A model generated the notes under the pieces. It was not told the origin of the DNA, searched no databases, and saw nothing but the letters and a program-made list of their open reading frames with translations. A stretch of 51,486 nucleotides of DNA from an uncultured Desulfobacteraceae bacterium (GTDB taxonomy: Bacteria > Desulfobacterota > Desulfobacteria > Desulfobacterales > Desulfatirhabdiaceae), in assembly GCA_903953895.1 (NCBI GenBank), contig CAJBLH010000053.1, positions 1 to 51,486 on the forward strand, given 5' to 3'. The translations under genes were made by a program, and so were the position numbers. Shown here in pieces: positions 11,583 to 48,251 of the stretch. The first letter of the stretch is position 1. Each line of letters opens with the position of its first letter.

Positions 11583-11684
11583 ATTGTCGTCTGATAAAGG
11601 CAAACCATCCAAAAGGGTGGGACGCAAAACATCTGGCCTAAGTTCTTTTCAGGAATATGGCAGCAGAGATACCGGGCGGGAATA
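11583..11684 (+). ncRNA. GEMM-I riboswitch (cyclic dinucleotide)
   Basis: The hallmark GEMM-I elements appear in order: AAAGGCAAACC at 11596-11606, a stem CCATCC/GGGTGG capped by AAAA, then GGGACGCAAAAC and GGCCTAAG, and a second hairpin ending GCAGCAGAGATACCGGGC. Known class members bind cyclic di-GMP; a subclass in Geobacter and relatives binds cyclic AMP-GMP. By eye the base matching position 20 of the Vibrio aptamer is G, favouring cyclic di-GMP, but the alignment should be checked. It lies between a candidate sigma-54 promoter and a Shine-Dalgarno-sequestering hairpin, upstream of signalling and pilin genes. Confidence 0.85.
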
Positions 11685-12938: not shown

Positions 12939-13904
12939 ATGAATGATATCCATATCCTATTTGTGGATGATGAACCGGACATTCTGCGCGCGATTGATCG
13001 TCTGCTGCGCAAGGAAAGTTATATCTTGCATTTTGCCGGAAGCGGCTCCGAAGCACTGGCCATCATGGCTAAAACGCCGATGCATATTGTCGTTACCGAT
13101 ATTAAAATGCCTGGGATGGACGGATTGTCTCTGCTCAAACAGATACAGGCGCTCTATCCGGATACAGTTCGAATGGCGCTCAGCGGCTATTTACAGATCG
13201 GTCAATTGCTGCCATGCATCAACACCGGAGAGATTTTTCGGTACGTCACCAAACCTACGAAACCAGAGGATTTGAAAACGTCGCTTCAAGATGCCACTGA
13301 CTATTTAAAGATTCAAAATGACCACATCGCTCATGTACATGAGCTGCATGAAAAAAATGAAAAACAGGAACAGGCGCTGCAACAGCACCAGGAAGTTGAA
13401 AAACAACTGCGACGACTTGCGATCAAGGATGATGTCACCGAGCTGTACAACCGACGTTTTCTGTCGTATTCCATGGAACAGCTTTTCGAGCGGTGCAAGC
13501 GCTACGGGAATGATCTGTCATGCATTATCATCGAACTGGATAATTTTAAGCAACTCAATGATCTTCATGGCTTTCCTTTCGGGGATGTGGTGCTTAAAGA
13601 ATTTTCCAATCGCCTGATCAAGCTGCTCTCCGGAACGGATATTGGATTCCGATACGGCGGCGCGCGGTTTATCGTCCTTTTGCCCAACACCATGCTGGAA
13701 ATAGCGCTGGTTCTGGGCAAGACCATCCTTAAATCATGCCAGAGTACGCCATTTATCCATGAGGGCCGATCCGAAACGATTACCGCAAGTATCGGCGCGG
13801 CATCATTGAGGCAGCAAAACCCGAAAACGCCCGATAGCCTGATGCAGATTGCAGACAGAATACTGGCAGGTTATAAGCTGAGTTTGACACAGAAACACAG
13901 ATAA
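12939..13904 (+). CDS. Response regulator with degenerate GGDEF domain
   Basis: A 321-residue protein. Residues 1-125 are a receiver domain with phospho-acceptor Asp54 (VVTDIKMPGM) and Lys105 (YVTKPTKPED). A short coiled coil (131-160) links it to a GGDEF domain recognisable by DDVTELYNRRFL, IIELDNFKQLND and GFPFGDVVLKEF. The active-site motif is GGARF (240-244) instead of GGDEF, so the catalytic acidic residue is gone and diguanylate cyclase activity is unlikely. It may act as a nucleotide-binding or protein-binding output instead. Its place near a GEMM-I riboswitch fits cyclic dinucleotide signalling. Confidence 0.85.
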   Translation: MNDIHILFVDDEPDILRAIDRLLRKESYILHFAGSGSEALAIMAKTPMHIVVTDIKMPGMDGLSLLKQIQALYPDTVRMALSGYLQIGQLLPCINTGEIFRYVTKPTKPEDLKTSLQDATDYLKIQNDHIAHVHELHEKNEKQEQALQQHQEVEKQLRRLAIKDDVTELYNRRFLSYSMEQLFERCKRYGNDLSCIIIELDNFKQLNDLHGFPFGDVVLKEFSNRLIKLLSGTDIGFRYGGARFIVLLPNTMLEIALVLGKTILKSCQSTPFIHEGRSETITASIGAASLRQQNPKTPDSLMQIADRILAGYKLSLTQKHR

Positions 13905-22289: not shown

Positions 22290-22316
22290 CAAAATAACAG
22301 TTAAAAAAGAAGACCG

Positions 22317-22488
22317 CTTGGTTATCGGAACACGGTTGAATTCCGTGATGATCCCATCGCTGTAACCGGAATATCTCTTGCGTCGCCTCCATCGTTTTGT
22401 TTGTTGCGGAGGCGGTCACTGGTTCCTTCAGGGGGCTGGGAAGGCTGTGTGGGAGAGGCTCCATCCGGAAGTCAGAAGACGGACCGAG
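22317..22488 (+). ncRNA. Cobalamin riboswitch upstream of cobT
   Basis: The conserved cobalamin (B12) aptamer elements are present in order: an ATCGGAACACGGTT-type P2/P3 entry, TGATGATCCCATCGCTGTAA, GTCACTGGTTCC, CTGGGAAGGC and the B12-box-like CCGGAAGTCAGAAGAC. The closing stem P1 can form between CTTGGT (22317-22322) and ACCGAG (22483-22488). It is followed after 29 bases by an intrinsic terminator, so B12 binding probably ends transcription before the cobT operon. Confidence 0.93.
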
Positions 22489-22517
22489 TGATCAGATGTC
22501 GAGGGCGCGATGGCAAA

Positions 22518-24451: not shown

Positions 24452-24790
24452 TCAGGCATTAACGGTCAATCCGGACAGCGCTTCTTCGATGGCATCCACC
24501 AGTTCGAAATGTGGCGGAATCTGGTCAAAAATCAGTTCGCCGTTGATCAGCAGGGAAGGTACCGGAGCAAGTCGCGTATGCTTCTTTACCGCATCTTCTC
24601 CGAACAATTCATAGGAAAGTTCCAGGAAACGATTTTTGCCCTTTCCGATCATGATATCCACACGCCGATATTCCACGCGATCTTCATATTGCGGCAGCAT
24701 TTCCTGAACAGCGGCATCCATGAAAAAGCAGGGAAGACAGTAATCTGCTTTATACATCACTTCGACCACAATCTTTTTAGCGGCGTTCAT
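24452..24790 (-). CDS. Thioredoxin-like protein, CLPC motif
   Basis: A 112-residue protein from the ATG at 24790, which has AAGGAG upstream. The redox motif CLPC follows the first beta strand (VVEVMYKADYCLPCFFMDA) and the cis-Pro segment is LAPVPSLLINGELIFD. It parallels the downstream 95-residue protein (CIPC) in length, motif position and ending, so they are paralogues. Likely a thiol-disulfide oxidoreductase or thiol-based metal handler; the substrate is not evident. Confidence 0.74.
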   Translation of the reverse strand: MNAAKKIVVEVMYKADYCLPCFFMDAAVQEMLPQYEDRVEYRRVDIMIGKGKNRFLELSYELFGEDAVKKHTRLAPVPSLLINGELIFDQIPPHFELVDAIEEALSGLTVNA

Positions 24791-25125
24791 TGAAATACTC
24801 CTTGATACAAAATGTTCGATCAAACCGGAATTGTTAGCTGTTCTCTGAGCGTCTATTATCAGATAAATCCGATATGTTCAATACCCACATTGTTTGCCAA
24901 CGCCTGTTTGAGTAGCGGAGCGATTCTGTGAGATGAGCGGATCAAGCGGTGTATCTGGTCTCTTGTGTTCGTTTGGAATTAATTTTGATTGAAATTTTAT
25001 GTGGCATGTCGCATATTGAATAAAAGAGCAGCGGCGTAGACAGATGTATCCTGTCAGGCAGTTCATGTTTCGTTCGTGTAAGCTGTTTGATTTAGAATGA
25101 CAGTGAAAATACAAGGTGAAAAAAA
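24791..25125. other. Divergent intergenic region
   Basis: About 335 bases between the minus-strand thioredoxin-like gene and the plus-strand 88-aa gene. It should hold both promoters, but none stands out by consensus. No hairpin or coding frame is convincing. Confidence 0.3.
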
Positions 25126-25421: not shown

Positions 25422-25451
25422 TTGACTTTCCGAATCTACTATCTCTAGAAT
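25422..25451 (+). promoter_or_regulatory. Promoter of the adenosyltransferase riboswitch transcript
   Basis: TTGACT (25422-25427), 18-base spacer, TAGAAT (25446-25451). A start about seven bases on places the aptamer at the RNA 5' end, as for the cobT riboswitch. Confidence 0.5.
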
Positions 25452-25460
25452 CAGCCAACA

Positions 25461-25632
25461 AAGGTGCTTTTCGGAGCTTAAAAGGGAACCCTGTGAAAAT
25501 CGGGGACGAGCCCGTCGCTGTTACCTTCTCCCAGTTTGGATAAATGGGAAACCTGCTGGCCGTTGTGTGTCACTGTCCAGAATCGAGATGGGAAGACCGC
25601 CGATAGGGGAGGAAGTCAGAAGACCTGCCTTA
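25461..25632 (+). ncRNA. Cobalamin riboswitch upstream of adenosyltransferase
   Basis: Second B12 aptamer: AAGGTGCTTTTCGGAGC entry, AAAAGGGAACCCTGTGAAAA, GACGAGCCCGTCGCTGTTAC, TGTCACTGTCC, GATGGGAAGAC and GGAAGTCAGAAGACCTGCC. One conserved position departs from consensus (CGCTGTTAC rather than CGCTGTAAC). A terminator at 25698 follows, so it should switch off the adenosyltransferase and cobalt transporter genes when B12 is abundant. Confidence 0.93.
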
Positions 25633-25697
25633 ACCAAACTGTGCTTGCTTCGCGGACCATGGCGTGCAGATTTTATCTTGTGGATAAACAGGGATAT

Positions 25698-26446: not shown

Positions 26447-27451
26447 ATGCATATCGCTGAAGGAATCATTATCGGTAAAGATGCCTTGCTCTATATGGCC
26501 GCTGGTGTGTCTCTGACGGCCTGGGGTGTATCGCGGATCAACATATTTGCCCGGAAGGCCCCGGAAAACAAACCGCTGCTGGGAATGGGCGCCGCACTGA
26601 TTTTCTTCTTTTCCCTGATTCCGATTCCGGCTTTCACAGGAACCTGCTCCCATCCCTGCGGCACACCGCTGATCGGGATGTTGCTGGGGCCATCCATCGG
26701 CATTGTTCTGAGCGCGATCAGCCTCCTGCTTCAGGCGGCTTTTTTTGCGCATGGCGGGTTCAGCACCTGGGGCGCCAATGTTGTGGCGCTGGGCTTCTTC
26801 GGCTGCTTTTTTGGCTGGGGAGGCTTTCGGTGCATGCGAAAACTCGGTATGCCCCTGTGGGCGGCAGGTTTTTTTGGCGGATTGATCGGGGATATCCTGG
26901 TGTATCTTGCATCCGGACTGATTCTCGGCACAACACTTGTCCGGGCGCCCAATCCGCAATATTCCCTCAGTGGCTATCTGCTGGTCATTTATTCGGCCTA
27001 CCTGCCCACGCAACTGCCCATCGCCACGGGGGAAGCTTTGATTACCGGACTTGCACTGCATTACGCCGGAAGACAACGGCCCGAAATTCTGGTTTCACTG
27101 GGGATACTTGCCAAGAAAGATATCAGACAATCCCTTCTCTTTGTGATACTGCCGGTGATGATTTTGCTCTGTGGGGTGGGATCTGCCGCAATATCCAAAG
27201 CGGATGCTCCGCCGGCGGGGGGCGGCGATGTGGATCTATCCGTCCGGAACAGTACTCCCTCCCGATTTTCCGGGATGGATGAGACAGTCAATGACGCCAT
27301 GGCTGTAAAGGCCGGCCGGCCCGCCCGTGAGCCTTATCTGAACACTGAAAGCATGGGGGATTTATGGAATCTCCTGCTACTATCGGCAGGAGGCATCTGC
27401 GGGTTTATCCTGGGACGCAATTGGCATTTGCTCTGGGGAAAATCCAAATAG
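26447..27451 (+). CDS. cbiM: Cobalt ECF transporter substrate-binding protein CbiM
   Basis: A 334-residue membrane protein. The N-terminus MHIAEG supplies the metal ligands Met1 and His2 after which the family is recognised, and CSHPCGTP carries a further His ligand. About six membrane helices follow, then helices and a loop with an extra C-terminal segment (residues 225-330) that ends in one more membrane helix (LWNLLLLSAGGICGFILG). That tail resembles a fused CbiN/PDGLE-type module. CbiM and NikM are close; cobalt is preferred here because of the cobalamin riboswitch and the neighbouring adenosyltransferase. AAGGAGG precedes the ATG. Confidence 0.9.
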   Translation: MHIAEGIIIGKDALLYMAAGVSLTAWGVSRINIFARKAPENKPLLGMGAALIFFFSLIPIPAFTGTCSHPCGTPLIGMLLGPSIGIVLSAISLLLQAAFFAHGGFSTWGANVVALGFFGCFFGWGGFRCMRKLGMPLWAAGFFGGLIGDILVYLASGLILGTTLVRAPNPQYSLSGYLLVIYSAYLPTQLPIATGEALITGLALHYAGRQRPEILVSLGILAKKDIRQSLLFVILPVMILLCGVGSAAISKADAPPAGGGDVDLSVRNSTPSRFSGMDETVNDAMAVKAGRPAREPYLNTESMGDLWNLLLLSAGGICGFILGRNWHLLWGKSK

Positions 27452-27573: not shown

Positions 27574-29262
27574 ATGTTTACGCGAGAACTGGATCTGATG
27601 CCCCTGAACAACCCGTACACCGAATCTGTCGGCATGATGGACATCCCGTCGAGCCGACTGCCGCAGCATGGCTTGTACTGCTGGGATGGGCGGCTGAAAC
27701 TGGCGATGCTGGCGGCGGCGATCGGGCTTAATATTTTTATGGCCCGGTTCTGGCTGTCCGGGCTGATTTTATTACTGGGAATAATCCTGGGGCGTTACTC
27801 CAGAATACCTGTTCGGCAGTATGGGATTTTTTTTCTGGCGCCTGTCTGGGCCACATCGATCGTGTTTGTGGGGTTTTCTGTGGGGTTCGGGGTGGCGCCT
27901 CTGTATCAGGTGGGGCCGGTGACTATATATCAGGAGGGAATACAACTGGGGCTGGCGGCCGCCGTTCGGGTGGCCTGCGACATGGCCTGGATCGCCGCCG
28001 TGTTTTTAACAACCCCGTTCAATTCCTTGATGCAGGCTTTAAGATGGTACCGGGTGCCGATCGTACTCCTGGATATTACTGCCATGGCGTATCGTTACGC
28101 CGGATTGTTATGGGAGGAATTTCACCGCATGAAAACATCGGCGGTGTCCCGCGGAGGGTTTCGCGGATGGATCAACCGCTATCACAGCACAGCCCGGATT
28201 TTATCACAGGTCATTCTGCGATCCTATGACCGATCTCTGCGGATTCAGCACGCCATGTTTGCCAGAGGGCAGCTCTGTGAAAAAAAGATTTTCGATGCCG
28301 CTCACGATTCCGGACAGAATGATTCCTGTCCGAATCGCTGCGACATCACTCCGGTTCTCGGCGATCCATCCGTGCCGGTGCTGATCTGTACCGATGTGTT
28401 TCATGGCTATGCCGAAACCCGTTCGCTGAAAAAACTGTCGATGACGGTTCATCAGGGAGAAATCGTGGCGCTCTGCGGGCCGAATGGGGCGGGCAAAAGC
28501 ACCCTGCTGAAGCTGATCGCCGGAATTCTCAGCCCTGACAGCGGCAATATCACGTTAAGCGGCATATCTCTTGACGTTTGCGGCCGACAGGATATTTTCA
28601 GGCAGGTTGGGATACTTTTCCAAGATCCAAACGACCAGCTTTTCTGTACGCATGTACAGGAAGATGTGGCTTACGGTCCCTTGAATCTGGGCCTCAATGC
28701 CGATGAAGTGAAACGTCGGGTCACCGCCGCCATGGAACTTATGGAAGTTTCCCATCTGGCGCAGCGGCCGATTCACAGGCTCAGTTATGGAGAAATGCGG
28801 CGGGTCGGACTGGCCGGGGTCATTGCCATGCAACCGCCGCTGATTCTGCTGGATGAACCGACCGCCGGCCTGGACCCGGCATCCACCCGTCACCTCATCC
28901 GGCTTATCCGGCACCTGAACAGCCATCACGGGTATACGTTGATCATGGTGACACACGATATCAACATCGCATCCATGATTGCCACGCGGGTCATCATTCT
29001 GGATCAGGGCGAAATCGTGGCGGACGGATCGCCACGCACGATACTGACGGATCGCAGCCTCCTCGAGAATTCACGGCTGGAGCCCCCTTTATTGACCAGG
29101 CTCTTTCAGGAGCTGGACGCTGGTTCCACCGGCAGTGAAATGATTCCGCTCACGATTGAAGAAGCTCTGGAAAGGCTTGCCTGTCTGAAAAACCGACATC
29201 CTTCCCCGGCAGAAGGGTGCAGCCCATGCTCCAACCCGCAGCAAACGGACCAACGTTTATGA
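27574..29262 (+). CDS. CbiQ-CbiO fusion: cobalt ECF transporter T and A components
   Basis: A 562-residue fusion. Residues 35-235 are the CbiQ-type transmembrane coupling protein with two Arg-containing coupling motifs (VSRGG near 191 and MFARG near 228). Residues 270-515 are the CbiO-type ATPase: Walker A GPNGAGKST at 302-310, Q-loop LFQDPNDQLF, signature LSYGE (in place of LSGGE), Walker B LILLDEPTAGLDP and switch His in MVTHD. In most genomes these are separate genes. With CbiM it makes a complete cobalt importer at the inner membrane. A 122-base gap precedes it and the start has no strong ribosome binding site; in-frame ATGs at 27598 and 27634 are alternatives. Confidence 0.9.
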   Translation: MFTRELDLMPLNNPYTESVGMMDIPSSRLPQHGLYCWDGRLKLAMLAAAIGLNIFMARFWLSGLILLLGIILGRYSRIPVRQYGIFFLAPVWATSIVFVGFSVGFGVAPLYQVGPVTIYQEGIQLGLAAAVRVACDMAWIAAVFLTTPFNSLMQALRWYRVPIVLLDITAMAYRYAGLLWEEFHRMKTSAVSRGGFRGWINRYHSTARILSQVILRSYDRSLRIQHAMFARGQLCEKKIFDAAHDSGQNDSCPNRCDITPVLGDPSVPVLICTDVFHGYAETRSLKKLSMTVHQGEIVALCGPNGAGKSTLLKLIAGILSPDSGNITLSGISLDVCGRQDIFRQVGILFQDPNDQLFCTHVQEDVAYGPLNLGLNADEVKRRVTAAMELMEVSHLAQRPIHRLSYGEMRRVGLAGVIAMQPPLILLDEPTAGLDPASTRHLIRLIRHLNSHHGYTLIMVTHDINIASMIATRVIILDQGEIVADGSPRTILTDRSLLENSRLEPPLLTRLFQELDAGSTGSEMIPLTIEEALERLACLKNRHPSPAEGCSPCSNPQQTDQRL

Positions 29263-30146
29263 CGTCTGCTTCTTATGTGCAACCGCTCGAAGCGCAATGC
29301 CCGCAACCAACTCCGATCCTTTCCGCAGAAGCCCTCTTGCGAGAGCTTCTGTTTGATACCGGAGACAGTATTCTGTTTACGGATACCTCCTTCAGCGTGG
29401 TTGAAGCCAATGCCGGAGCCAGTGAAATTCATCGGATGCCACATGAGCGGATCGTCGGCATCGACTGTCTGTCGCTGATTGTTGAAGCGGAAAGACATGT
29501 ACTGAGCAAGGTTTTACAGAATCTGCGGGACTTCGACGGGTGGTCAGGCGAGATGAAAGGTGTCAGAGAGGAAAACCAGGTCTTTTCCATGACGGTCACC
29601 GTCAAACGGCTGCCTTTGCCGGATCGCACGATCTTTTGTTTTGTCATTCGGGACAGGTCGGAATTCCTGTCGCTGCAGGAGCTCCTGCGTCAGGAAAAAT
29701 CGCAGCGTCGGGAATTATATATCACCCTTCGGAACCTGATGAAGGCTTTTGAAAAAGAAAAGCAGGGGCTGGAGGGGGGGATATCCCACAAGATCGAAAC
29801 CGTGCTGCTTCCGGCGATTGAAAAAGTCATGAAAGAACCCAATACGGAGATCCGCAACAGCTACCTGCATATCATGCGGGAGCAGTTGATCCATCTGACC
29901 AAAGGGTTTTCCCGGGAATTGGAGGGGCGGTTTCTAAAGTTGACACGCTCTGAAATGAGGGTATGCCAGTGCATTCAGGAAGGTCATTCCAGCAAGGAAA
30001 TTGCCGATCTGATGAATGTTTCTTTCGAGACCGTGCAGGTGCATCGCCGCAATATTCGAAAAAAACTGGGCCTTTGCGGCCGTAAAGTAAATCTGTACAA
30101 CTTGTTGTCATCCAGGCCCTTGTTTCAAGCCACTTCGATTCGATGA
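29226..30146 (+). CDS. PAS-LuxR transcriptional regulator
   Basis: About 306 residues from the ATG at 29226 (GAAGG upstream); it overlaps the end of the CbiQ-CbiO gene in another frame. Residues 30-150 form a PAS-type sensor (FDTGDSILFTDTSFSVVEAN, FCFVIRDRSEFLSLQ), followed by a helical linker and a C-terminal LuxR helix-turn-helix (LTRSEMRVCQCIQEGHSSKE, VSFETVQVHRRNIRKKLGL). PAS-LuxR proteins of this layout often regulate neighbouring metabolic genes in response to a small molecule or redox state. It stands between cobalt transport and the corrinoid methyl-transfer genes and may activate the latter. Confidence 0.82.
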   Translation: MLQPAANGPTFMTSASYVQPLEAQCPQPTPILSAEALLRELLFDTGDSILFTDTSFSVVEANAGASEIHRMPHERIVGIDCLSLIVEAERHVLSKVLQNLRDFDGWSGEMKGVREENQVFSMTVTVKRLPLPDRTIFCFVIRDRSEFLSLQELLRQEKSQRRELYITLRNLMKAFEKEKQGLEGGISHKIETVLLPAIEKVMKEPNTEIRNSYLHIMREQLIHLTKGFSRELEGRFLKLTRSEMRVCQCIQEGHSSKEIADLMNVSFETVQVHRRNIRKKLGLCGRKVNLYNLLSSRPLFQATSIR

Positions 30147-30434: not shown

Positions 30435-31049
30435 ATGATAATTATTCAGGTCGCCGGTTTTCTGGGCTGCGGCAAAACAACTCTGATGCTCAAATTGTCT
30501 CGGAATCTGGCTGCTGGAGGGGCCCGTAAGGTGGCGCTGGTGGTCAATGAAATCGGAGAGATTCCTGTTGATGGAAAAGTGATCGCAGAAAGCGGGATGA
30601 TGATGAAAGACATCGGCGGCGGCTGTATTTGCTGCGAGGTGGCTGCCACGTTTGCAAAAACGCTTTATCAGATATACAAAGAATTTTCCCCTGAATATGT
30701 GCTGGTAGAACCGACGGGTGTGGCTGTTCCGCATCAGGTCAGTCTGGCCGCCAGAATGAGCGGCCGAGACGCCAAAGTGGCCATCGGGCCGGCCATCGTG
30801 CTGTTCGACGCCACCCGTCCCGCCGAACTGTTGGATATGGATATGCTCGGGCAACTGGTTACGACACAGATCAAGGATGCGGATGTGATCGCCATCAGCA
30901 AGGTGGATGCTGTGGATATGGCAGCCGTAAAAGAATCCGTCACCAAGGTTCGGGAAATCAACCCGAAAGCCAGGATACTGAACCTGTCATCTTTTACCGG
31001 GATGGGGATCGACGAACTGACGGATATCATTCTTAACTGGGAGATATAA
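30435..31049 (+). CDS. CobW-like G3E GTPase with CxCC metal motif
   Basis: A 204-residue P-loop GTPase of the G3E family (CobW, HypB, UreG and relatives), which deliver metals or assist cofactor-dependent enzymes. P-loop FLGCGKTTL, Switch-type VNEIGEIPVDG, the CobW metal-binding signature GGGCICCE (Cys64, Cys66, Cys67) and the guanine-type ISKVD are present. It lacks the C-terminal CobW domain, so it is a short member. AGAAGGGG precedes the ATG. It heads an operon with an unknown protein, a selenocysteine-type paralogue, a UroD-type methyltransferase and CbbQ/CbbO-like genes. Likely role: metal or cofactor delivery to the corrinoid system (inference). Confidence 0.82.
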   Translation: MIIIQVAGFLGCGKTTLMLKLSRNLAAGGARKVALVVNEIGEIPVDGKVIAESGMMMKDIGGGCICCEVAATFAKTLYQIYKEFSPEYVLVEPTGVAVPHQVSLAARMSGRDAKVAIGPAIVLFDATRPAELLDMDMLGQLVTTQIKDADVIAISKVDAVDMAAVKESVTKVREINPKARILNLSSFTGMGIDELTDIILNWEI

Positions 31050-31053
31050 GCCG

Positions 31054-31560
31054 ATGTCGAACTTTTCCGATGAAAGTCCAGGGTGTTACACGGAACATGG
31101 CGTCAGCGGCTATGGGGTTGCTGCCAAAATCAGCCGAAGCGAACCCATGACCGAAGATTTCGTAAAATCCATGGCGGAAAGCATGATGCTGACTATCGCC
31201 GGCAAATGCATGGAACTGGGCGCTAAATGCATCGGTCACATCAAATCCCATCTGCGAACCGAGGCCGGTACCATCAAAGCCGATACCATCGGCGTCGGTC
31301 ACGGCAGCTATTCTTCCGGCCGGCTCGAACACCCGGTCCGGGATGTCTTTATCGCCATCAACAGCATCGTTCAGGGCATCCCAGAGGATGCCGTCAAAGC
31401 GGCGACACTGGAAGGGATGCATGACGTGGCCGGTCAGAACGGGCTTTTTGTGGTGAAAGAAAAAGAACACACGTATTTTGACGAGTTCGATTTTACCGCA
31501 TCCAAACAAGACTATATCAAACAGCTTTCCGAACAACTGGATATGGATCAGGACAGATGA
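31054..31560 (+). CDS. Unknown protein of the G3E/corrinoid operon
   Basis: A 168-residue protein between the two G3E GTPases: four bases after the first and overlapping the second by ATGA, so tightly coupled. It has scattered Cys/His (GCYTEHG, GKCMELGAKCIGHIKSHL) and a Gly-rich loop (IGVGHGSYSSGRLEHP). No family recognised with certainty. The context suggests a partner of the GTPases, perhaps the protein that receives the metal or cofactor. Soluble, no signal peptide. Confidence 0.6.
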   Translation: MSNFSDESPGCYTEHGVSGYGVAAKISRSEPMTEDFVKSMAESMMLTIAGKCMELGAKCIGHIKSHLRTEAGTIKADTIGVGHGSYSSGRLEHPVRDVFIAINSIVQGIPEDAVKAATLEGMHDVAGQNGLFVVKEKEHTYFDEFDFTASKQDYIKQLSEQLDMDQDR

Positions 31561-32147
31561 AGATCATCGCTATTTCCGGTATGCGCGGCAGCGGCAAAAC
31601 CACCCTGATCCGGGAACTGATCGCCCGATCGGTAGCTGCCGGCCAAACTTGCGCCCTGATTGTCAATGAAGACGGTGAGGCGTCTTACGATACCGATTTT
31701 CTCCAGCGGCATGGGGTGGCGGCCGAATTCCTGCGCGGCGGGTGAGTGGGCTGTTCCCTGGCCGCCAGGCTGGTGGCCCTGCAAAAAGAACTGAAACGCA
31801 AACATAACCCGGATTTTCTCTTTATCGAACCATCCGAAATGGTCGTCACCCAAGAGCTAAGAGATGTGATGGCCATGGGGCGGCGGGATATCACCTACGA
31901 GATCGGACCCTTGATCACCCTGGTAAACGGGCCGAAATTTGATTCCCAGTGGCAGAATCGATCGTTTCTGATGATCGGGCAGATGAAAGATGCCGATCTG
32001 GTTTTACTCTCCCGATCCGATCTCATGGATGCGTGCGGCATTCATGCGCTTGAACAAAAATTGATGGATTATGTGCGTTCGCTGTTACCTCTCAGTGTCC
32101 CCTGCAACAGGGGTGTCAAGGAAGTGGTGATGGCGGTTTTGGGTTAA
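31557..32147 (+). CDS. Selenocysteine-containing G3E GTPase (UGA read-through)
   Basis: A 196-residue product if the in-frame TGA at 31743-31745 encodes selenocysteine (Sec63). The part before it has the P-loop SGMRGSGKTTL and VNEDGEAS; the part after continues the same fold (CSLAARLVALQKEL, FLFIEPSEMV). Aligned with the paralogue at 30435, the TGA falls exactly on the first Cys of the CobW motif: GGGCICCE there, GGUVGC here, so Sec63 and Cys66 match Cys64 and Cys67. No alternative start with a ribosome binding site follows the TGA. A fitting bacterial SECIS hairpin lies just downstream. The start overlaps the previous gene by ATGA. Automatic annotation would split or truncate it. A true nonsense mutation is the alternative. 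Confidence 0.85.
31743..31779 (+). promoter_or_regulatory. UGA codon with bacterial SECIS-like hairpin
   Basis: After UGA (31743-31745), GGCCGCCA (31760-31767) pairs over eight positions, including one G-U, with UGGUGGCC (31771-31778). The loop is GGC, beginning 23 bases after the UGA. This fits the bacterial SECIS pattern: apical loop 16-37 bases downstream with a G in its first two positions. Confidence 0.75.
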
Positions 32148-32256: not shown

Positions 32257-33297
32257 ATGACACCATTAGAAAGAGTTGGAACTGTCCTGCAAGGGGGAAT
32301 CCCCGATCGCGTCCCTGCCGCTCCCCTGATCTGCGGCGCCTCCCGTCGGGTGTACGGCGTGACCTATGCGGAATGGTCACAGGACGGCGAGCTGATGGCA
32401 AAGTCCATGATTCAGGCCCAGAAACTGATCGGATTTGACGGCATTCTGGGACTGGTGGATCTGTCCGTGGAAGCGGCCGATTTCGGGCAGAAAATGGTTT
32501 TTCCTGTCGAGGATACGGCCCACCCTGAATACAATGATTCATTTGTCAAGACACCGGATGATTTTTATAAAATCCAGCCGGTGGATCCGACCAAATCCCC
32601 GCGGATGAAAGAAGTTCTCCGCTACATGGAAATCGTGGCCAATGAAGTCGCAAAAACCGTTCCCATTATGGGTTTTGTTTATGGGCCCCTTGGCATTCTC
32701 GCGATGATGCGCGGAGCGGAAAACCTGTTTCGGGATTGCTACAAACACCGGGAAGCGGTGATTCACGCCGAGGAAGTCATTACCCCTGTTCTGGTGGAAT
32801 ACATCAAGGCCATGTGCAAAACAGGCGTTCACGCAATTGTCATGGACACCCTGTTTGCCTCTCAATCCATCATGAACAAAAAAATGTGGATGGAGATCGA
32901 GGGTCCCTTTACCAAGATTATGGCTGATACCGTTCGGGAATGCGGGTGCATGCCCATGGTACACAACTGCGGCAATGGCGTTTACTTTGATGTCCAAATC
33001 GAGATGATGCAGCCAACGGCCATTTCTTTTGCCTATCTGCCCGATGACTGCAAGGACACGGCGGAACTGAAACAGAAATACGGTAAGAAGACCACCCTTG
33101 TGGGCTATGTCAGCCCGGCGGCTTATGCATTTCTGGGCACTCCGGAGGAAATGAAGCTGGAATGCAAGAAGCAGATCGAGGAGTTGGGCAAGGACGGCGG
33201 GTTCATTCTGGCTACCGGTTGTGAATTTCCCCCCAACGGCAGCCTGATGAATGCCATCGCGATGATGGAGGCAGTGGAGCTTTACGGAAAATATTGA
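32257..33297 (+). CDS. UroD-family corrinoid methyltransferase (MtaA/MtbA type)
   Basis: A 346-residue protein from the ATG with AAAGGAG upstream; the frame is open 26 codons earlier without a good start. It belongs to the uroporphyrinogen-decarboxylase superfamily but has the zinc triad of the methylcobamide:thiol methyltransferases: His236 and Cys238 in MVHNCGNGVYFD and Cys322 in TGCEFPPN. That separates it from true HemE. The zinc activates a thiol or the methyl acceptor/donor. It lies 109 bases after the Sec-GTPase gene in the same direction. Substrate unknown; a methyl donor or acceptor in the corrinoid pathway is likely. Confidence 0.85.
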   Translation: MTPLERVGTVLQGGIPDRVPAAPLICGASRRVYGVTYAEWSQDGELMAKSMIQAQKLIGFDGILGLVDLSVEAADFGQKMVFPVEDTAHPEYNDSFVKTPDDFYKIQPVDPTKSPRMKEVLRYMEIVANEVAKTVPIMGFVYGPLGILAMMRGAENLFRDCYKHREAVIHAEEVITPVLVEYIKAMCKTGVHAIVMDTLFASQSIMNKKMWMEIEGPFTKIMADTVRECGCMPMVHNCGNGVYFDVQIEMMQPTAISFAYLPDDCKDTAELKQKYGKKTTLVGYVSPAAYAFLGTPEEMKLECKKQIEELGKDGGFILATGCEFPPNGSLMNAIAMMEAVELYGKY

Positions 33298-33387: not shown

Positions 33388-34233
33388 ATGGAGTTTGAAA
33401 AACTGCTGATGGAAGCCTCAAGAAAACAAAATGGCATTGCCATTGAAAATTACCATATTAGCACCGAGCCCTATTACATATCGATCGGCGATGAAATCGA
33501 AGTCTTCGAGAAGGCATACAAGCTCAAGCTTCCCGTGATGTTGAAAGGCCCCACAGGCTGCGGCAAGACCCGCTTTCTGGAGCATATGGCCTGGAAGCTA
33601 TCCCTGCCGTTGGTGACGATTGCCTGTCATGAGGATCTGACGGCCTCGGATCTGGTCGGACGGTTTCTGCTGAAAGGAGATGAAACGGTGTGGCAGGACG
33701 GCCCGCTGAGTCTGGCCGTGAAGCACGGGGCCATCTGCTATCTGGATGAAGTGGTCGAGGCGCGTAAAGACACCACCGTGGTCATTCACCCCCTGACGGA
33801 CGACCGCCGGATTCTCCCCCAGGAAAAACGAGGGCTTCTTCTGGAAGCCCATCCGGATTTCATGCTGGCGATTTCCTACAACCCTGGTTACCAGAGCGTC
33901 ATGAAAGAGCTTAAACACTCCACGCGTCAGCGGTTTCTGGCCATCGAGTTTACTTACCCGTCTGCGGAAATCGAGCGCACGATCATCATGAAAGAAAGCG
34001 GTCTTGATCGGGATGTTGCTGATCGCCTGGTGCGCCTGGGTGAAATGGTTCGCAATCTGAAACAGCATGGTTTGGAGGAAGGCATCAGCACCCGTCTTCT
34101 GGTTTATGCCGGCAAGCTGATCGCCGATGGCCTTTCTCCGGCCACTGCCTGCAGCGTTGCCGTAACCCGGGCCATGTCCGATGATGCCGAGATGCAGGAG
34201 GCCATTGCTGAAATCGTGACGGGTATCTTCTGA
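33388..34233 (+). CDS. CbbQ/NorQ-like MoxR-type AAA+ ATPase
   Basis: A 281-residue AAA+ protein. Walker [13 protein letters not shown], the pre-sensor region [16 protein letters not shown], Walker [11 protein letters not shown] and sensor 1 [10 protein letters not shown] are typical of CbbQ/NirQ/NorQ. In known systems this ATPase works with a VWA-domain CbbO/NorD protein to remodel metal enzymes such as Rubisco or nitric oxide reductase. Here no such target is nearby; the operon holds a UroD-type methyltransferase and G3E GTPases. The start has no Shine-Dalgarno because a palindromic repeat ends next to it. Cognate VWA partner follows at 34376. Confidence 0.88.
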
Positions 34234-34279
34234 TTCGCGTCAAAATATCAACTCAGGTTGCCAACAAGAAAATATTAAC

Positions 34280-34358
34280 ATGGATAAACAGGATGAGCAG
34301 GATAAAAAAGATAAAAAAGCAGCAGCTTAAACTTTTTTATCCTGTCTATCCTGTCCAT
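34280..34358. repeat. Intergenic palindromic element, ATCCTGTC family
   Basis: Imperfect inverted repeat: ATGGATAAACAGGATGAGC... AAAAAAG (34280-34310) faces CTTTTTTATCCTGTCTATCC... CAT (34332-34358). Repeats of this wording are scattered in many deltaproteobacterial genomes. The right arm is T-rich enough to act as a partial terminator between the two cbb-like genes. Confidence 0.55.
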
Positions 34359-34375
34359 CAATGTGAATTAACCCC

Positions 34376-36643
34376 TTGAGTACTTTCACTGAATTTTGCG
34401 ACGCCAATCCAGGTCTCCTGGACGATTTGAGCGATGCCGGCCGCAGTGCCTACCAGCGGATGTGCGACAGCGTTTCCCATCTGCGCCCTCAAAAAGCGTT
34501 TGTTTTCTTTTCAGATGCGCTTGTCGGTATCCGTTCTCTGACAAAGCATCCCTGCGGGGAGGCCTTGCTGTCGGATATCGTGGCGCTTACCGAACAGAAC
34601 TGGGCCTTGATGCAGTCCTGTGCGACCGCTTTCGGCGTTCTTCCGGCGGATGAGGTGTTTCTCAAAAAATGGATCGACCTGGCTTCCAAACTGGCGATCC
34701 GGGATATCGATGTCGGTGTGAATTTTCTGAATCAGACGCCCGCAGCGATGGAAAAGCTTGGAATCGATGCCATCCTGCAATGGGGCAGCCAGGCGCTTTT
34801 GGCCCTGACCAAAACTCCCGGGATGTGGCAGGCGGTGTCTGCCTACCTGAAACAATCAGCCGCCCTTCACTGCGGTTTTTCGCTGGTGCGCTGGGATTTT
34901 TTTCTGGATCAGGCCAGCCGTATCGCTGTCAAATCCGCCGCTGCGGCCGCAGGCTTCATTGAAATCGGCAACCGGGCCTGCCTGCTGCTGACAGATGAAG
35001 AAACATCCCAATGGGTCAGTGGAGGTTTGGCTTGCGCAAACACGGAGCAGGAACTCGTCAAATATTTCGATGCCGGCTCATTGAAGGCGCTGCAAGCCAG
35101 GGATGGTCTGGCTTCCGGCGTTATGCTCAAGGACCGCACCCAGACCCTTTCTCTGATTTGTGAAGCGCTTCTGGCCCATCCGGTCAAGATCCGCGCCAAC
35201 ACGATACTTTACAGTCATCAGGGATTTGCAGGTGGCGCCGCAACCGACGGGCGGTTTATTTTCCTGCCGGAAGTGGCGCCCACGTTCGCGTTGATGAAGC
35301 TCATGACGCTTCATCAGGCCATGCTGCTGGACCGCGGTCATTTTCTGGAAGAATCCGGCCGAATTTTATTTGATCCGATTTATATTCACATGTATGCCGA
35401 CAAACGTCTGGCGCAGCGTCTTCCTGCCATCGCATCCGAGATGAATCGTCTGGCCGAAGGACGTCTTCCGGAAGGCTACCCTTTCCGGGCAGTTAAATAT
35501 CTGGATGCGCCCCTGCCCTGGTGGGGGGATATCCTGCCGGATTTGATCAGTCAGACCAATGCCACCATTGATGGCATCAAGGCAAAGGTCGCCGATCAAT
35601 ATGAGGATCTGCCCCCGGCGCTGGTGGAAATGTTGATTGGTCAACTCATGGCGCATGGTGATCGGGACCCCGATGCTCTGGCGCAGATGCTGGCAGGTAT
35701 GATCGGAAATCTGGAGTTTCTGTCCCCGGATGCCGAAGACCTCCCGGATACCGTCAAAACATTTCTTTATAGAGAATGGGATGCAAACCTGTCCGATTAC
35801 AAACTGGACTGGTGTCTGGTTCGCCAGCGCATTGCCAGTGAAGATTCAAACCCGTTTGTCGAAAATCTGCGCAGACAGCGCCATGGGCTCATTTCCTTGA
35901 TTCAGCGGCAGTTTACGCGGCTTAAACCGGAACAGTTCCGCCGATATCGGGCTCAGCCTGCTGGAGATGATCTGGACATCGATGCGTTGATCGAAGCCTG
36001 GGTGGATATGCGCTCCGGGTCGCACTTGTCTGAAAATGTGTACATCCGCCGGGATAAGCGGGTCCGGGATGTGGCGGTTCTTTTTCTGGTTGATTTGAGT
36101 GCTTCAACAGAAGAAAAAGTGGATAACCGCCGGGTGATCGATATTCAGAAGGAGGCCATGGCCCTGATGGCCGAAGCCTTGAACGCCCTGGGAGACCCGT
36201 ATGCCATTCTGGGGTTCAGTTCGGATGGGCGTTTCAGGATCGATTTGATTCAGGTAAAGGATTTTTCTGAATCTTATGACGACAGGGCATGCTATCGACT
36301 GGGCAACCTTGAACCTGCGGGCCTGACCCGGATGGGGGCCGTGGTGCGGCATGCGACCTACAAACTGGACGGCGAAGATGCAGCCATCAAGATTCTGGTG
36401 ATCCTGACAGACGGCCGCCCTTACGATCTGGAATACGGCAATCTGGACTACGCGATTGCCGATACCCATAAAGCCATTCAGGAGGCCAGAAGGAAGCGGA
36501 TTCATCCCTTTATCATCACTTCAGACGCCAAAAGCGCCGATTACCTCCGGCGCATCGCCCCTGAGACCCAGAGCATCATCGTGCCACGGGTGGAGATGCT
36601 GCCCGGACTGCTACCGGCAATCTACAAGCGCCTGACCGTATAA
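34376..36643 (+). CDS. CbbO/NorD-like VWA-domain protein
   Basis: A 755-residue protein, the usual partner of the AAA+ protein before it. The N-terminal two thirds are helical and mediate target/ATPase contact in homologues. The C-terminal ~210 residues are a von Willebrand A domain with the MIDAS motif (FLVDLSASTEE) and later ILTDGRPYDLEYG, which bind a divalent metal and a partner acidic residue. It starts at TTG with no obvious ribosome binding site; no earlier in-frame ATG is available. A Rubisco- or NOR-type role is unlikely here; reactivation of a corrinoid enzyme is a hypothesis from context. Confidence 0.85.
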   Translation: MSTFTEFCDANPGLLDDLSDAGRSAYQRMCDSVSHLRPQKAFVFFSDALVGIRSLTKHPCGEALLSDIVALTEQNWALMQSCATAFGVLPADEVFLKKWIDLASKLAIRDIDVGVNFLNQTPAAMEKLGIDAILQWGSQALLALTKTPGMWQAVSAYLKQSAALHCGFSLVRWDFFLDQASRIAVKSAAAAAGFIEIGNRACLLLTDEETSQWVSGGLACANTEQELVKYFDAGSLKALQARDGLASGVMLKDRTQTLSLICEALLAHPVKIRANTILYSHQGFAGGAATDGRFIFLPEVAPTFALMKLMTLHQAMLLDRGHFLEESGRILFDPIYIHMYADKRLAQRLPAIASEMNRLAEGRLPEGYPFRAVKYLDAPLPWWGDILPDLISQTNATIDGIKAKVADQYEDLPPALVEMLIGQLMAHGDRDPDALAQMLAGMIGNLEFLSPDAEDLPDTVKTFLYREWDANLSDYKLDWCLVRQRIASEDSNPFVENLRRQRHGLISLIQRQFTRLKPEQFRRYRAQPAGDDLDIDALIEAWVDMRSGSHLSENVYIRRDKRVRDVAVLFLVDLSASTEEKVDNRRVIDIQKEAMALMAEALNALGDPYAILGFSSDGRFRIDLIQVKDFSESYDDRACYRLGNLEPAGLTRMGAVVRHATYKLDGEDAAIKILVILTDGRPYDLEYGNLDYAIADTHKAIQEARRKRIHPFIITSDAKSADYLRRIAPETQSIIVPRVEMLPGLLPAIYKRLTV

Positions 36644-36680: not shown

Positions 36681-37187
36681 ATGACCGACACGTATCAGCC
36701 TTTGGTGGCAAAAGCCCTGGATATGGGTGCGCTGGGTGCCAGACTCATCGATACCCACACGATCGTTTTTGACTCACGGTCCTTTCTGAAATGCCGTTTC
36801 GGCTGCAACCGCTGGGGCCGCTACTGGACCTGCCCGCCGCATCTGAGCATCTCGCCGGAACTGTTCATGGAAGCCTTTAAACAGTATTCCAAGGCGGTAA
36901 TCATTCAAACGGCGGATCCATTAAAAGGCCAAGAGGTTACCCTGGCCATCGAAAAAGAAGCCATGCTGGTCAGCAAAAGCCCTTTTGCTTTTGCAATGGT
37001 GCTTTGCGTCCAGTGCGAGACCTGCGCCTATCCCGAGCCCTGTCGTTTCCCCCATCTGGCCAGGCCGTCCATGGATGCTTATGGAATCGATATCGGAGCC
37101 ACGGTTGCGCCGCTGGGGTTCAAGGTGGAATTCGACCCCGAGGGGCGCCTGCTGCCGGCATGGTACAGCATGGTTTTGGTGGTGTGA
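36681..37187 (+). CDS. DUF2284 Cys-rich metal-binding protein (copy 1)
   Basis: A 168-residue protein with the DUF2284 signatures: CRFGCNRWGRYWTCPP (residues 33-48) and CVQCETCAYPEPCRFP around 109-125. The seven or more conserved Cys probably bind iron-sulfur clusters or another metal. The family is common in anaerobes and often near corrinoid or methyl-transfer genes; function not established. GAAAGG precedes the ATG. It is the last gene of the operon starting at 30435. A second copy of the family ends the window's other corrinoid operon (50703). Confidence 0.82.
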   Translation: MTDTYQPLVAKALDMGALGARLIDTHTIVFDSRSFLKCRFGCNRWGRYWTCPPHLSISPELFMEAFKQYSKAVIIQTADPLKGQEVTLAIEKEAMLVSKSPFAFAMVLCVQCETCAYPEPCRFPHLARPSMDAYGIDIGATVAPLGFKVEFDPEGRLLPAWYSMVLVV

Positions 37188-45351: not shown

Positions 45352-46299
45352 ATGTTTCAGTTCGATACAAAACAGAAAGTGTGTGAGGTTGGTTGTGTCA
45401 AATTTGGCGGGCAGCCGGGAGAATACCCCACCGTGGTGTGTTCTTCCATTTTCCAGAAGGGCGACAAGGTTTTTGAAGGCAAACGCAAGGAAGGTTTCAA
45501 TGAAACGCTTGCGGCTTCCCTGTTGACGACACAGGAAAAACTCTGGAAAGAATCCGGTGTTCCCGCCATGGCCGATATCGTCGCCAACACCGGCGATGAG
45601 TTCAAGCGATTCATCGATTTTGTGGTCGCCAATACGTCGATGCCTTTTTGTATCGATGCCTGGGTGATGAAACCCAAACTGGAAGGGGCCGCCTATTGTG
45701 CGGAAAAAGGGCTTCTGGATCGGATGTTTTACAACAGCCTGACGGTCTGGGAACAGGATCTGGAGACCGAAATCCGGGAAATCGCAAAGATTGGCGTCAA
45801 ACATGTACTGTTGGTTGCTTTTGACCAGGCCGACCAGATGCCTTCCGGACGCATTAGCGGAACACAGAAGATTCTGGATGCCATTGAAAAAGTCGGCGCC
45901 AAATTCGAAAGTATTTTTGTCGATACCTCCGTCATGAACGGTCCCGCCACCGCCCTGTGCGGCCTTTCCAACAAGCTGATCAAGGAAAAATGGGGATTTC
46001 CCACGGCGTCCGCTCCCTCCAATGGTTCCTATATGTGGAAAAAGGCGCGTGAAATGTGGGGTTTCAAGGGGTGGTCCGCCGCTGATGCCGCCCTGGAAGC
46101 TCTTTCTGCGTACATGTATCACGACATGATTTTCTCTGGCCCCATGGCAGGCGCCGATCGGATCGTACCGGCTGTCGCCATGGCCGATGCATTTTTGGCT
46201 ACAGCCGTATATGCGGAAACCAAACGGCTTCCAACCGACCCCAATCACCCGCTGTTCAAACTCTTTCCCGAATTTGTAGAGCAGCTCAAGTCACTGTAA
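45352..46299 (+). CDS. MtrH-family methyltransferase (corrinoid to tetrahydrofolate)
   Basis: A 315-residue TIM-barrel-type methyltransferase of the MtrH/pterin family. Segments typical of the family include CEVGCVKFGGQPGEYPTVV at the start, FCIDAWVMKP, TASAPSNGSYMW and the C-terminal FKLFPEFV. MtrH-type enzymes in bacteria move the methyl group from a methyl-corrinoid protein to tetrahydrofolate (methyltransferase II in demethylase systems). An ideal CAGGAGG precedes the ATG. It heads the four-gene set with a UroD-type methyltransferase, a corrinoid protein and RACo. Direction and pterin specificity are inferred. Confidence 0.88.
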   Translation: MFQFDTKQKVCEVGCVKFGGQPGEYPTVVCSSIFQKGDKVFEGKRKEGFNETLAASLLTTQEKLWKESGVPAMADIVANTGDEFKRFIDFVVANTSMPFCIDAWVMKPKLEGAAYCAEKGLLDRMFYNSLTVWEQDLETEIREIAKIGVKHVLLVAFDQADQMPSGRISGTQKILDAIEKVGAKFESIFVDTSVMNGPATALCGLSNKLIKEKWGFPTASAPSNGSYMWKKAREMWGFKGWSAADAALEALSAYMYHDMIFSGPMAGADRIVPAVAMADAFLATAVYAETKRLPTDPNHPLFKLFPEFVEQLKSL

Positions 46300-46348
46300 T
46301 GAATTTTTACGGCTTTTGAAAATACAACAGAATCTGAAAGGAATTGTC

Positions 46349-47392
46349 ATGGCAGAACTTACATCAAAAGAAAGAGTCATTAAATTTTTCAAAAAAGAAC
46401 CCATCGACACCATGCCCGTTTTTTCCGGGATGGGCACGGTGGTGATCCAGGCTGTGAACGAAATGGGAGTTAAATTCGCTCAGGTACACACGACTGCCGA
46501 ACTTTTGGCCGGATCAGCTATGAAATCCAGCGAAATGTGTGGATTGGACGCTGTGTGTATCCCCTACGACATGGCAACCGTCGCACAGGCTGTGGGCTGT
46601 GGCTTGACCCTGTACGAAAACTCCGCGGACATTTTGTATCCTACGGTTCCCAACAAATGGGAAACACTTGAAGCCGTCAACATTCCCGCCGATTTCATGA
46701 AGCGGGAAAGAATGCCCATGGTGGATGATGCTTTTAAAATTCTGGTGAAAGACGGACGGTTTGCAGTGGGCGCCTGGCAGTTGGGTCCTTTCACGCTGGC
46801 CGGCCAGATCATCGAACTGGGGCTGCTCTTAAAGGGCGCAAAGAAAAACAAGGAAGCCGTAGAAGCTTTTTTGACGAAGATGACCGATATCGTGATTGAA
46901 AGTATCAAACATTATGAAAGCCTTGGCGTGGATTTTCTGAACATTCGTGAAATGGGATCCGGAACGGATCTGCTTTCCCCGAAAATGTGGAACTCGCTGA
47001 TTCAGCCCCACCTGACCCGGATTTTCAGCGAACTGAAGACGCCTGCTGTCCTGCATATCTGCGGAGGCACGGATATGATCGTACCGCTGATGAACCAGTG
47101 CGGTGCGGATGCGCTTTCCTTCGATCAGAAAAACACGCTGACCAAAACCCGGGAAGTGGTTGGAAAAGACGTGATCATTCTGGGGAATTTTGACCCATAC
47201 GGTACGCTGGTTCAGATGGAAAATCCGGAGGATGTAAAAGCGGTTGTGAAGAAATGCATCGATGATGGCGTGGATGCTGTCTGGCCGGGTTGCGATCTGT
47301 GGCCGGATGTAAAAATGGATAACGTCAAAGCCTGGGTCAATACCGTCCGGGAATGCGGAAAGAAAGCTTCGCCGGCCATCGGGCGGCTCTAA
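46349..47392 (+). CDS. UroD-family methyltransferase of the four-component set
   Basis: A 347-residue paralogue in fold of the protein at 32257, started at the ATG with GAAAGGA upstream. Zinc triad: His236 and Cys238 in LHICGGTDMIV and Cys315 in PGCDLWPDV. In bacterial O-demethylases of acetogens and relatives, a UroD-type protein can be the substrate-specific methyltransferase I, moving the methyl group from substrate to corrinoid protein. Its place between the MtrH-type enzyme and the corrinoid protein fits that role. The methylated substrate is unknown; a thiol acceptor role, as in MtaA, is the alternative. Confidence 0.87.
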   Translation: MAELTSKERVIKFFKKEPIDTMPVFSGMGTVVIQAVNEMGVKFAQVHTTAELLAGSAMKSSEMCGLDAVCIPYDMATVAQAVGCGLTLYENSADILYPTVPNKWETLEAVNIPADFMKRERMPMVDDAFKILVKDGRFAVGAWQLGPFTLAGQIIELGLLLKGAKKNKEAVEAFLTKMTDIVIESIKHYESLGVDFLNIREMGSGTDLLSPKMWNSLIQPHLTRIFSELKTPAVLHICGGTDMIVPLMNQCGADALSFDQKNTLTKTREVVGKDVIILGNFDPYGTLVQMENPEDVKAVVKKCIDDGVDAVWPGCDLWPDVKMDNVKAWVNTVRECGKKASPAIGRL

Positions 47393-47466
47393 ATATATTG
47401 GCGCTATTTATCAAAAAACTGATGCCTTTTTTTTATTCTTATTTTTGAAGTGGAAAGGAAATGAAC

Positions 47467-48144
47467 ATGTCAAAGACAAAAGAAGAAATGTTGAAAGCGT
47501 TGGCGGAAGCCGTTGTGGAATATGATGAAGATGCCTGCAAGGAACTCTCCCAGGAAGTTCTGGATCGTCCGGAATTGCTCACCCCGATGGAGGCGGTGAT
47601 GAACGGACTTGCCGCAGGCATGGAAGAAGTCGGTCGCCTCTACGATACCCATGAATATTTTGTTCCTGAAGTGTTGATGTGCGCAGATGCACTTTACGCG
47701 GGCCTTGGCATTTTACGGCCCCATATTCCGAAATCTGATGCCGGAGTGAATGCGCAGGTGGTTATCGGTTCCATTCAGGGGGATGTTCACGATATCGGGA
47801 AAAACCTGGTAAAGATGATGTTTGACGTTGCCGGTTGGGGCGTTCATGATCTTGGCCGGGATGTTCCGCTGGAGCAGTTCGTCGAAAAACAGCTCGATAC
47901 CAACTCCGAGGTTGTCGCCATGTCCGCCATGATGACCACCACCATGCTTGGCATGAAGAAAGTTATCGCGATGATCAAAGAGAAAAACCCGGAATGTCTC
48001 ATCATGCTGGGCGGTGCGCCAGTCACCAAAGACGTGGCGAATCTGTTCGGCGCCGATGGCTATGCCGATTCCGCAGGAAACGCCGTTTCCGAAGGCATCA
48101 AGATGATCGGACGTCTACGCGAATTTCAGGCCGCTAAAAAATAA
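47467..48144 (+). CDS. Corrinoid-binding methyl-carrier protein (MtaC/MtbC type)
   Basis: A 225-residue protein from the ATG eight bases after GGAAAGGA; an ATG two codons earlier is less well spaced. The N-terminal half is the four-helix cap (residues 1-88: LDRPELLTPMEAVMNGLAAG and MEEVGRLYDTHEYFVPEVLM). The C-terminal half is the Rossmann-like B12 domain with the lower-ligand His108 in GDVHDIGKNLV and SAMMTTTMLGMK and the GGAPVTKD loop. It carries the cobamide that shuttles the methyl group between the UroD-type and MtrH-type methyltransferases. Confidence 0.95.
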   Translation: MSKTKEEMLKALAEAVVEYDEDACKELSQEVLDRPELLTPMEAVMNGLAAGMEEVGRLYDTHEYFVPEVLMCADALYAGLGILRPHIPKSDAGVNAQVVIGSIQGDVHDIGKNLVKMMFDVAGWGVHDLGRDVPLEQFVEKQLDTNSEVVAMSAMMTTTMLGMKKVIAMIKEKNPECLIMLGGAPVTKDVANLFGADGYADSAGNAVSEGIKMIGRLREFQAAKK

Positions 48145-48152
48145 GCGAACGG

Positions 48153-48233
48153 GGGGACGGAACAGGGTACATGGGGCAGGGTGCAGGGTGCACGCTGATA
48201 CCTGATACCTGCCCCCTGATCCCCGCCCCCTGT
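48153..48233. repeat. GC-rich intergenic repeat element
   Basis: Repeated CAGGGTGCAGGGTGC-type wording faces CCTGATACCTGCCCCC, forming an imperfect inverted repeat between the corrinoid protein and RACo genes. Such CAGGGT elements are dispersed in related genomes. It may lower read-through into the RACo gene. Confidence 0.5.
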
Positions 48234-48251
48234 AATATAGGAGATATGTGA

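Follow-up and report, generated by a model that had tools for sequence, protein, structure and literature searches.

A predicted CobW-related selenoprotein and its conserved gene neighborhood in an uncultured Desulfobacteraceae bacterium

Gene content of the locus

The window, by which we mean the whole 51,486-nucleotide stretch of contig CAJBLH010000053.1 analyzed here (assembly GCA_903953895.1), contains a gene for a predicted CobW-related selenoprotein of the G3E type (31557 to 32147, plus strand; hereafter the Sec gene), the product of which is 196 amino acids long with selenocysteine as residue 63 (U63). Its frame is interrupted only once, by the TGA at 31743 to 31745, which forms codon 63 and, read as selenocysteine, completes the motif GGUVGC. 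The read-through protein matches the NF041053 profile (275.3 bits) and the cobW domain (PF02492; 85.8 bits). The genes and features described below are likewise on the plus strand unless stated otherwise.

A G3E paralogue (30435 to 31049; PF02492, 115.2 bits) ends 507 bases before the Sec gene and is the next gene but one. It has the motif GGGCICCE, with an intact CxCC (codons at 30624 to 30635), ExxG, and SKxD. The two G3E proteins are of similar length, contain the same domain, and share approximately 31% identity over 169 aligned columns; the paralogue retains the three motifs and, unlike the Sec gene, has no UGA. Its score on the NF041053 profile (120.4 bits) is under the family cut-off of 180. 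Upstream of the paralogue are genes for a PAS-LuxR regulator (29217 to 30146; PF00196 and PF13426), which also has matches in 5 of the 10 other family loci, and for the CbiQ-CbiO fusion (27574 to 29262; PF02361 and PF00005) and CbiM component (26447 to 27451; PF01891, 144.8 bits) of a cobalt ECF transporter. A cobalamin riboswitch (25445 to 25646; Rfam RF00174, 73.9 bits) lies ahead of the genes for a PduO-type adenosyltransferase and CbiM, and a further one (22302 to 22502) lies ahead of cobT. The transporter genes, cobT, the adenosyltransferase gene, and both riboswitches all lie in the approximately 9.3 kb that precede the Sec gene. A minus-strand frame split by a TGA (24452 to 25114; 78 + 141 codons) is located between cobT and the riboswitch that comes second in window order. 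Further upstream, a c-di-GMP-I riboswitch (11589 to 11676) was found approximately 1.3 kb ahead of a response regulator/GGDEF gene (12939 to 13904).

The gene downstream of the Sec gene encodes an MtaA/URO-D-like methyltransferase (32257 to 33297; PF01208, 185.6 bits). Aligned with the methylcobalamin:CoM methyltransferase structure 4ay7, this protein retains the HxC motif and a later Cys, which we take to bind zinc in methyltransferases of the 4ay7 type. It is followed by genes for a CbbQ/NorQ-type AAA ATPase (33388 to 34233; PF07728 and PF08406), a VWA-domain protein (34376 to 36643; PF00092, 31.2 bits, cut-off 23.8) that, judging from gene order, is a probable partner of the ATPase, and a DUF2284 predicted metal-binding protein (36681 to 37187; PF10050, 110.3 bits). 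Beginning 13 kb downstream of the Sec gene, genes for an MtrH/MtgA-like protein, a second MtaA-like protein, a corrinoid protein, and a RACo-type activator (45352 to 50336) look like a corrinoid methyltransferase set.

The gene directly upstream of the Sec gene encodes an orphan protein of 168 amino acids (31054 to 31560) with a predicted ferredoxin-like α/β fold, and its stop codon overlaps the ATG of the Sec gene. No Pfam or NCBIfam match was found for this protein at an E value of 0.001, and a sequence search of solved structures returned nothing at an E value of 1. Relatives with 57 to 80% identity are present beside the Sec gene in nine other loci. Of the nine class-sample genomes with a Sec gene, eight carry the orphan gene, and genome G412 has a weak match. 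The AlphaFold2 model was fair (pLDDT, 74.8); Foldseek gave no match to it at an E value of ≤0.001, and its best VIA-align Z score was 8.2, a value typical of common arrangements, so that the model points to no function. YjiA appears in the Foldseek list at ranks 20, 21, and 27 (E value, 0.02; TM score, approximately 0.28), which is too weak for use.

Reading of the in-frame UGA

ORF-TGA-ORF patterns are common in themselves, with several dozen in the window, and the hairpin downstream of the UGA is weak evidence when taken from a single sequence; the selenocysteine reading is therefore carried by comparison. UGA was found at residue 63 in all 11 family loci and Cys in none, and U63 aligns with the first Cys of the CxCC metal motif. 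The 11 loci represent 11 different genomes: 9 from the search of the class (window included), G142 from the search of the phylum, and L018 from a Desulfarculaceae MAG. Ten of them were selected by the NF041053 cut-off itself, a procedure by which a distant Cys form scoring below the cut-off could be missed. Amino acid identity to the window protein is 44 to 53% before the UGA and 41 to 57% over 110 residues after it, and such similarity downstream would be expected if translation continued in frame through the UGA.

The genome contains the genes required for selenocysteine incorporation, including selA (596.8 bits), selB (382.4 bits), and two copies of selD (363.3 and 357.7 bits), all above their cut-offs, as well as a tRNA-Sec (75.5 bits; gathering score, 47). 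Within both selD genes (L080 and L081, on contigs C153 and C184 of the same genome) there is a TGA (match codons 10 and 11), and selenophosphate synthetase is probably itself a selenoprotein in both copies. Judged from the comparison of sequences, UGA 31743 to 31745 very probably encodes selenocysteine, and the placement of this residue at the first metal Cys of a G3E (CobW-like) fold is strongly supported.

These results agree with the sequence-only reading of the locus, which had placed an in-frame TGA at the first metal Cys of the paralogue. Its coordinates and the paralogue motif were borne out, as was its view that the two sides of the TGA form one frame and one fold. It had also proposed that the genome be searched for selenocysteine machinery and that homologues be inspected at residue 63, and both came out in its favor, as did the SECIS-type hairpin with a GGC loop that it had placed shortly downstream of the TGA and that we find at 31760 to 31778.

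If the TGA were instead a true stop, the locus would encode two polypeptides, one of 62 amino acids and one of 133 amino acids beginning at GTG 31746, or would be a decaying gene. A GTG does indeed adjoin the TGA on its 3′ side, but the codon in this position differs among loci (GTG, CTC, ATC, GCC, CTG, and ATG), so that a start is not conserved, and the retention of UGA in 11 of 11 loci with similar protein conservation on both sides makes this reading highly improbable. More improbable still is a sequencing or assembly error in which TGC or TGT was misread as TGA; the genome is a draft of 315 contigs, but error is very unlikely because the same TGA is present in 11 loci from 11 genomes, and the family had already been defined by curators as a selenoprotein. 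Reassignment of UGA to Trp is out, since TGA terminates the gene just upstream as a normal stop of this operon (ATGA overlap at 31557 to 31560) and the full selenocysteine machinery is in the genome, and a pseudogene is out in view of the UGA in all 11 loci, the comparable conservation of the two flanking parts, and the variability of the codon that follows.

The hairpin (31760 to 31778, plus strand) lies at a conserved position and consists of 8 bp closed by a GGC loop (31768 to 31770), with 22 nt from the UGA to the loop. Folded alone, it has an energy of −13.4 kcal/mol. With its 3-nt loop, it conforms to the published rule for bacterial SECIS (bSECIS) elements given in section 5 of PMC13188914, which calls for a loop of 3 to 9 nt, a stem of 4 to 16 bp, a G in the first two loop bases, a spacing of 16 to 37 nt, and an energy of at most −7.5 kcal/mol. 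As evidence from one sequence it is weak, because equally good folds were obtained for 89 of 200 shuffles of the 53-nt stretch. Among 1,000 synonymous recodings of that short stretch, 29% contain some hairpin that passes the rule and 2.7% reach the real energy.

Across the family, the published energy limit is satisfied, in our own implementation, by 4 of 10 distinct sequences, compared with 1.6 in synonymous controls (standard deviation [SD], 1.1; maximum, 6 in 1,000), and 120 of 1,503 codon positions elsewhere in the same genes pass the bSECIS rule. A hairpin with a loop G, a spacing of 21 to 22 nt, and no fewer than 5 bp in the stem, one mismatch being permitted, is present in 9 of the 10 distinct sequences; synonymous recodings contain it in 3.1 (SD, 1.3), and none of 2,000 controls reached 9, in a test for which the position was picked after the hairpins had been seen and the controls of which ignore relatedness. 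The exception, L066, has at most 3 bp at the hairpin position. Synonymous codons at positions +4 to +12 after the UGA are identical in 59% of cases versus 31% expected, and this excess of 0.28 is the highest of 149 nine-codon windows (next best, 0.22 at +42), a within-gene comparison in which relatedness is shared by all windows. RNAalifold predicted a six-pair hairpin in which one pair is changed on both sides, with a slight covariation term of −0.44. L072, which is nearly identical to L071, was excluded from the hairpin and synonymous-codon counts of 10 sequences and from the tree described below.

Family membership and altered motifs

The match to NF041053, designated "CobW-related selenoprotein" (CobW_rel_Se), covers profile positions 1 to 194 of 195 with a cut-off of 180 bits, and the trait of that family, a UxxC motif with selenocysteine encoded by UGA, is present as GGUVGC. 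Alike in the full-length match and in UxxC, and with no difference found, the window protein is apparently an ordinary member. The sequence-only reading knew of no selenoprotein described at this position; the family has in fact been described, since a table of a 2026 review (PMC13188914) lists "Cobalamin synthesis CobW-related selenoprotein, NF041053, UxxC," citing Zhang and Gladyshev 2007, on the Olavius algarvensis symbiont, as the first report, and a table in PMC9312934 contains the entry "Cobalamin synthesis protein CobW-like, UxxC." The gene is a further member of a catalogued selenoprotein family and not a new family, and in this respect our finding is mainly confirmatory. A role for the NF041053 family was not found described in our literature search.

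Genomes with a match over the NF041053 cut-off number 2 of 395 in the phylum sample, 9 of 389 in the class sample, and 1 of 8 in the own family, counts that all include the window's genome; in the order to which G142 belongs, the number is 1 of 5. In the own genus, the Sec gene occurs only in the window's genome (1 of 7). Each match above the cut-off contains one TGA. This patchy distribution may reflect loss or transfer.

The window protein has a P-loop, GMRGSGKT, and the Walker A pattern GxxxxGKT is found in all 11 Sec loci (the stricter GxxGxGKT in 8). By the motif definitions of PMC7895991, the remaining G3E motifs are altered. The Gly of hhhExxG is Glu (ExxE) in 11 of 11 Sec loci. The guanine motif [NST]KxD reads SRSD in the window protein, and its Lys is replaced by Arg in 10 of the 11, L065 being the lone Sec locus that keeps Lys (SKTD). 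CxCC has become UxGC in every one of the 11, the middle Cys being replaced by Gly. In 25 other G3E rows, by comparison, ExxG and the guanine-motif Lys are present in all 25 and CxCC in 23. Sec63 and Cys66 are the only invariant Cys or Sec positions in the 11 Sec loci, and no His is invariant; this pair could serve as a redox couple or, together with other ligands, bind metal. A standard metal-GTPase cycle is disfavored by the absence of the middle Cys, ExxG, and the guanine-motif Lys. The earlier designation of the product as a G3E (CobW-like) GTPase holds for the G3E fold, for which the PF02492 score compares with a cut-off of 20.7, but the term GTPase is doubtful for a protein in which ExxG and NKxD are altered and the metal motif is UxGC.

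The Sec protein shares the P-loop, the G3E domain, and the position of the metal motif with COG0523/CobW proteins and YjiA (PDB 1nij and 4ixm). It differs from them in having UxGC rather than CxCC, ExxE rather than ExxG, and SRxD rather than [NST]KxD, and in being only 196 amino acids long with no second domain by Pfam. Its score for the CobW cobalt chaperone (TIGR02475) is 60.2 bits, below the cut-off of 332.1. HypB is a small single-domain metal-handling G3E protein, from which the Sec protein is likewise set apart (TIGR00073; 42 bits, below the cut-off of 121.2). The AlphaFold2 model of the Sec protein, for which two sequences served as input, was of poor quality, with a mean pLDDT of 46.6. 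RecA rows that ranked highest among solved structures for query P0001 were rejected as repeated P-loop matches in RecA fusions, at approximately 13 bits each.

A tree of 35 G3E rows places the Sec proteins in a single clade (100/100), which groups weakly with the upstream paralogues (75/86) under a midpoint root only. The topology is compatible with an old duplication. L023, L025, and L057, with short or empty frames, were excluded from this tree and from the set of 25 motif rows, and the weaker matches L032 to L042 are outside the tree and the motif table.

Conserved neighborhood and possible function

The module in the window has the order CbiMQO, CxCC G3E, orphan, Sec G3E, MtaA-like methyltransferase, and AAA/VWA pair. 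The counts that follow are lower bounds, with several contigs ending within the stretch. The order CxCC G3E, orphan, Sec G3E, and MtaA-like gene is complete in 6 of the 10 other loci and is followed in a seventh as far as the contig end. The orphan gene is immediately 5′ of the Sec gene in nine loci, with the CxCC paralogue ahead of it in eight; in L065 the contig start is too close for the paralogue. The MtaA-like gene is 3′ of the Sec gene in 8 of 10, and in L018 its place is taken by a corrinoid-protein gene (B12-binding_2). The genes for the CbbQ-type AAA and VWA proteins are downstream in seven (in two of these the contig ends within the VWA gene), DUF2284 is found in five, and CbiM and CbiQO are upstream in four, with partial matches in a fifth. 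L066 (genome G765) is without the paralogue, the orphan, and the MtaA-like gene in the 9,000 of 11,578 bases examined.

The 9 of 389 class-sample genomes that have the Sec gene are also those in which an MtaA-like protein of at least 71% identity was found, and in one of them, G765, the two genes are on separate contigs. The remaining MtaA-like matches drop to 48%, save for a second copy in G765 at 60%. In G412, a similar module (L075, 3240 to 9881) comprises a CxCC G3E gene, a weak relative of the orphan gene, and AAA, VWA, DUF2284, and MtaA-like genes with no Sec gene, which indicates that selenocysteine is not required in every module of this kind. Selenocysteine in MtaA-like relatives was considered and rejected: four matches (44 to 48% identity) contain one TGA each, at the end of the alignment and level with the end of the window gene, and we take these to be ordinary stops.

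Taken as a whole, the best explanation of the locus, in which we place moderate confidence, is an NF041053 selenoprotein that provides a metal or redox maturation service. SelB with Sec-tRNA would decode UGA 31743 to 31745 at the hairpin, the 5′ side of which begins at the 15th base after the UGA, yielding a G3E P-loop fold that has a UxxC pair (Sec63 and Cys66) where ordinary members carry CxCC. The Sec protein and the upstream CxCC paralogue would form a paired metal-handling P-loop module, the paralogue acting as the standard metal GTPase of the pair. A metal (zinc, or cobalt from CbiMQO) or a pair of electrons would pass via Sec63 and Cys66 to mature or reactivate the MtaA-like methyltransferase or the corrinoid protein that partners it, with mechanical remodeling by the CbbQ-type AAA and VWA proteins. 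A metal or redox service to the methyltransferase is suggested by the cobalt genes upstream, the corrinoid set downstream, the motifs of the MtaA-like protein, and the observation that CobW binds Co(II) when MgGTP is present, probably via the CxCC thiols (PMC7895991). Gene order and co-occurrence make the MtaA-like methyltransferase the somewhat favored client of the Sec protein, and as its metal we infer cobalt or zinc.

Metal handling rather than pure redox chemistry is an even call. In a redox role, which we consider possible and the less probable course for the protein as a whole, a selenenylsulfide formed between Sec63 and Cys66 would reduce a target (an oxidized thiol of a zinc site or a Co(II) corrinoid, for example) in a reaction switched by nucleotide binding. 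Many redox selenoproteins are listed with UxxC (PMC13188914), the middle Cys of CxCC is gone, and the pair is all that the 11 loci have in common in Cys, Sec, or His. Yet the fold is that of PF02492 and not of thioredoxin, Sec63 stands where CobW-type proteins have their metal site, and genes for cobalt import belong to the operon.

Returning to the maturation service, we tentatively suggest a more specific form, which we would not rate as probable: the NF041053 protein may be a degenerate, possibly nonhydrolyzing G3E protein that forms a selenium-dependent pair with the adjacent CxCC G3E protein, and this pair may, in concert with a CbbQ-type AAA/VWA motor and the orphan protein, load or repair the metal site of one MtaA-like clade. 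Our literature search found no description of such a G3E-pair/AAA-VWA maturation system. What is added to the catalogued family is a functional lead, in that the fixed neighborhood, the co-occurrence with one MtaA-like clade, and the altered GTPase motifs together point to a testable role.

The CbbQ/NorQ-type AAA and VWA gene pair (33388 to 36643) travels with the MtaA-like methyltransferase and cobalt genes, and a metal-insertion or reactivation motor is a possible function of its products.
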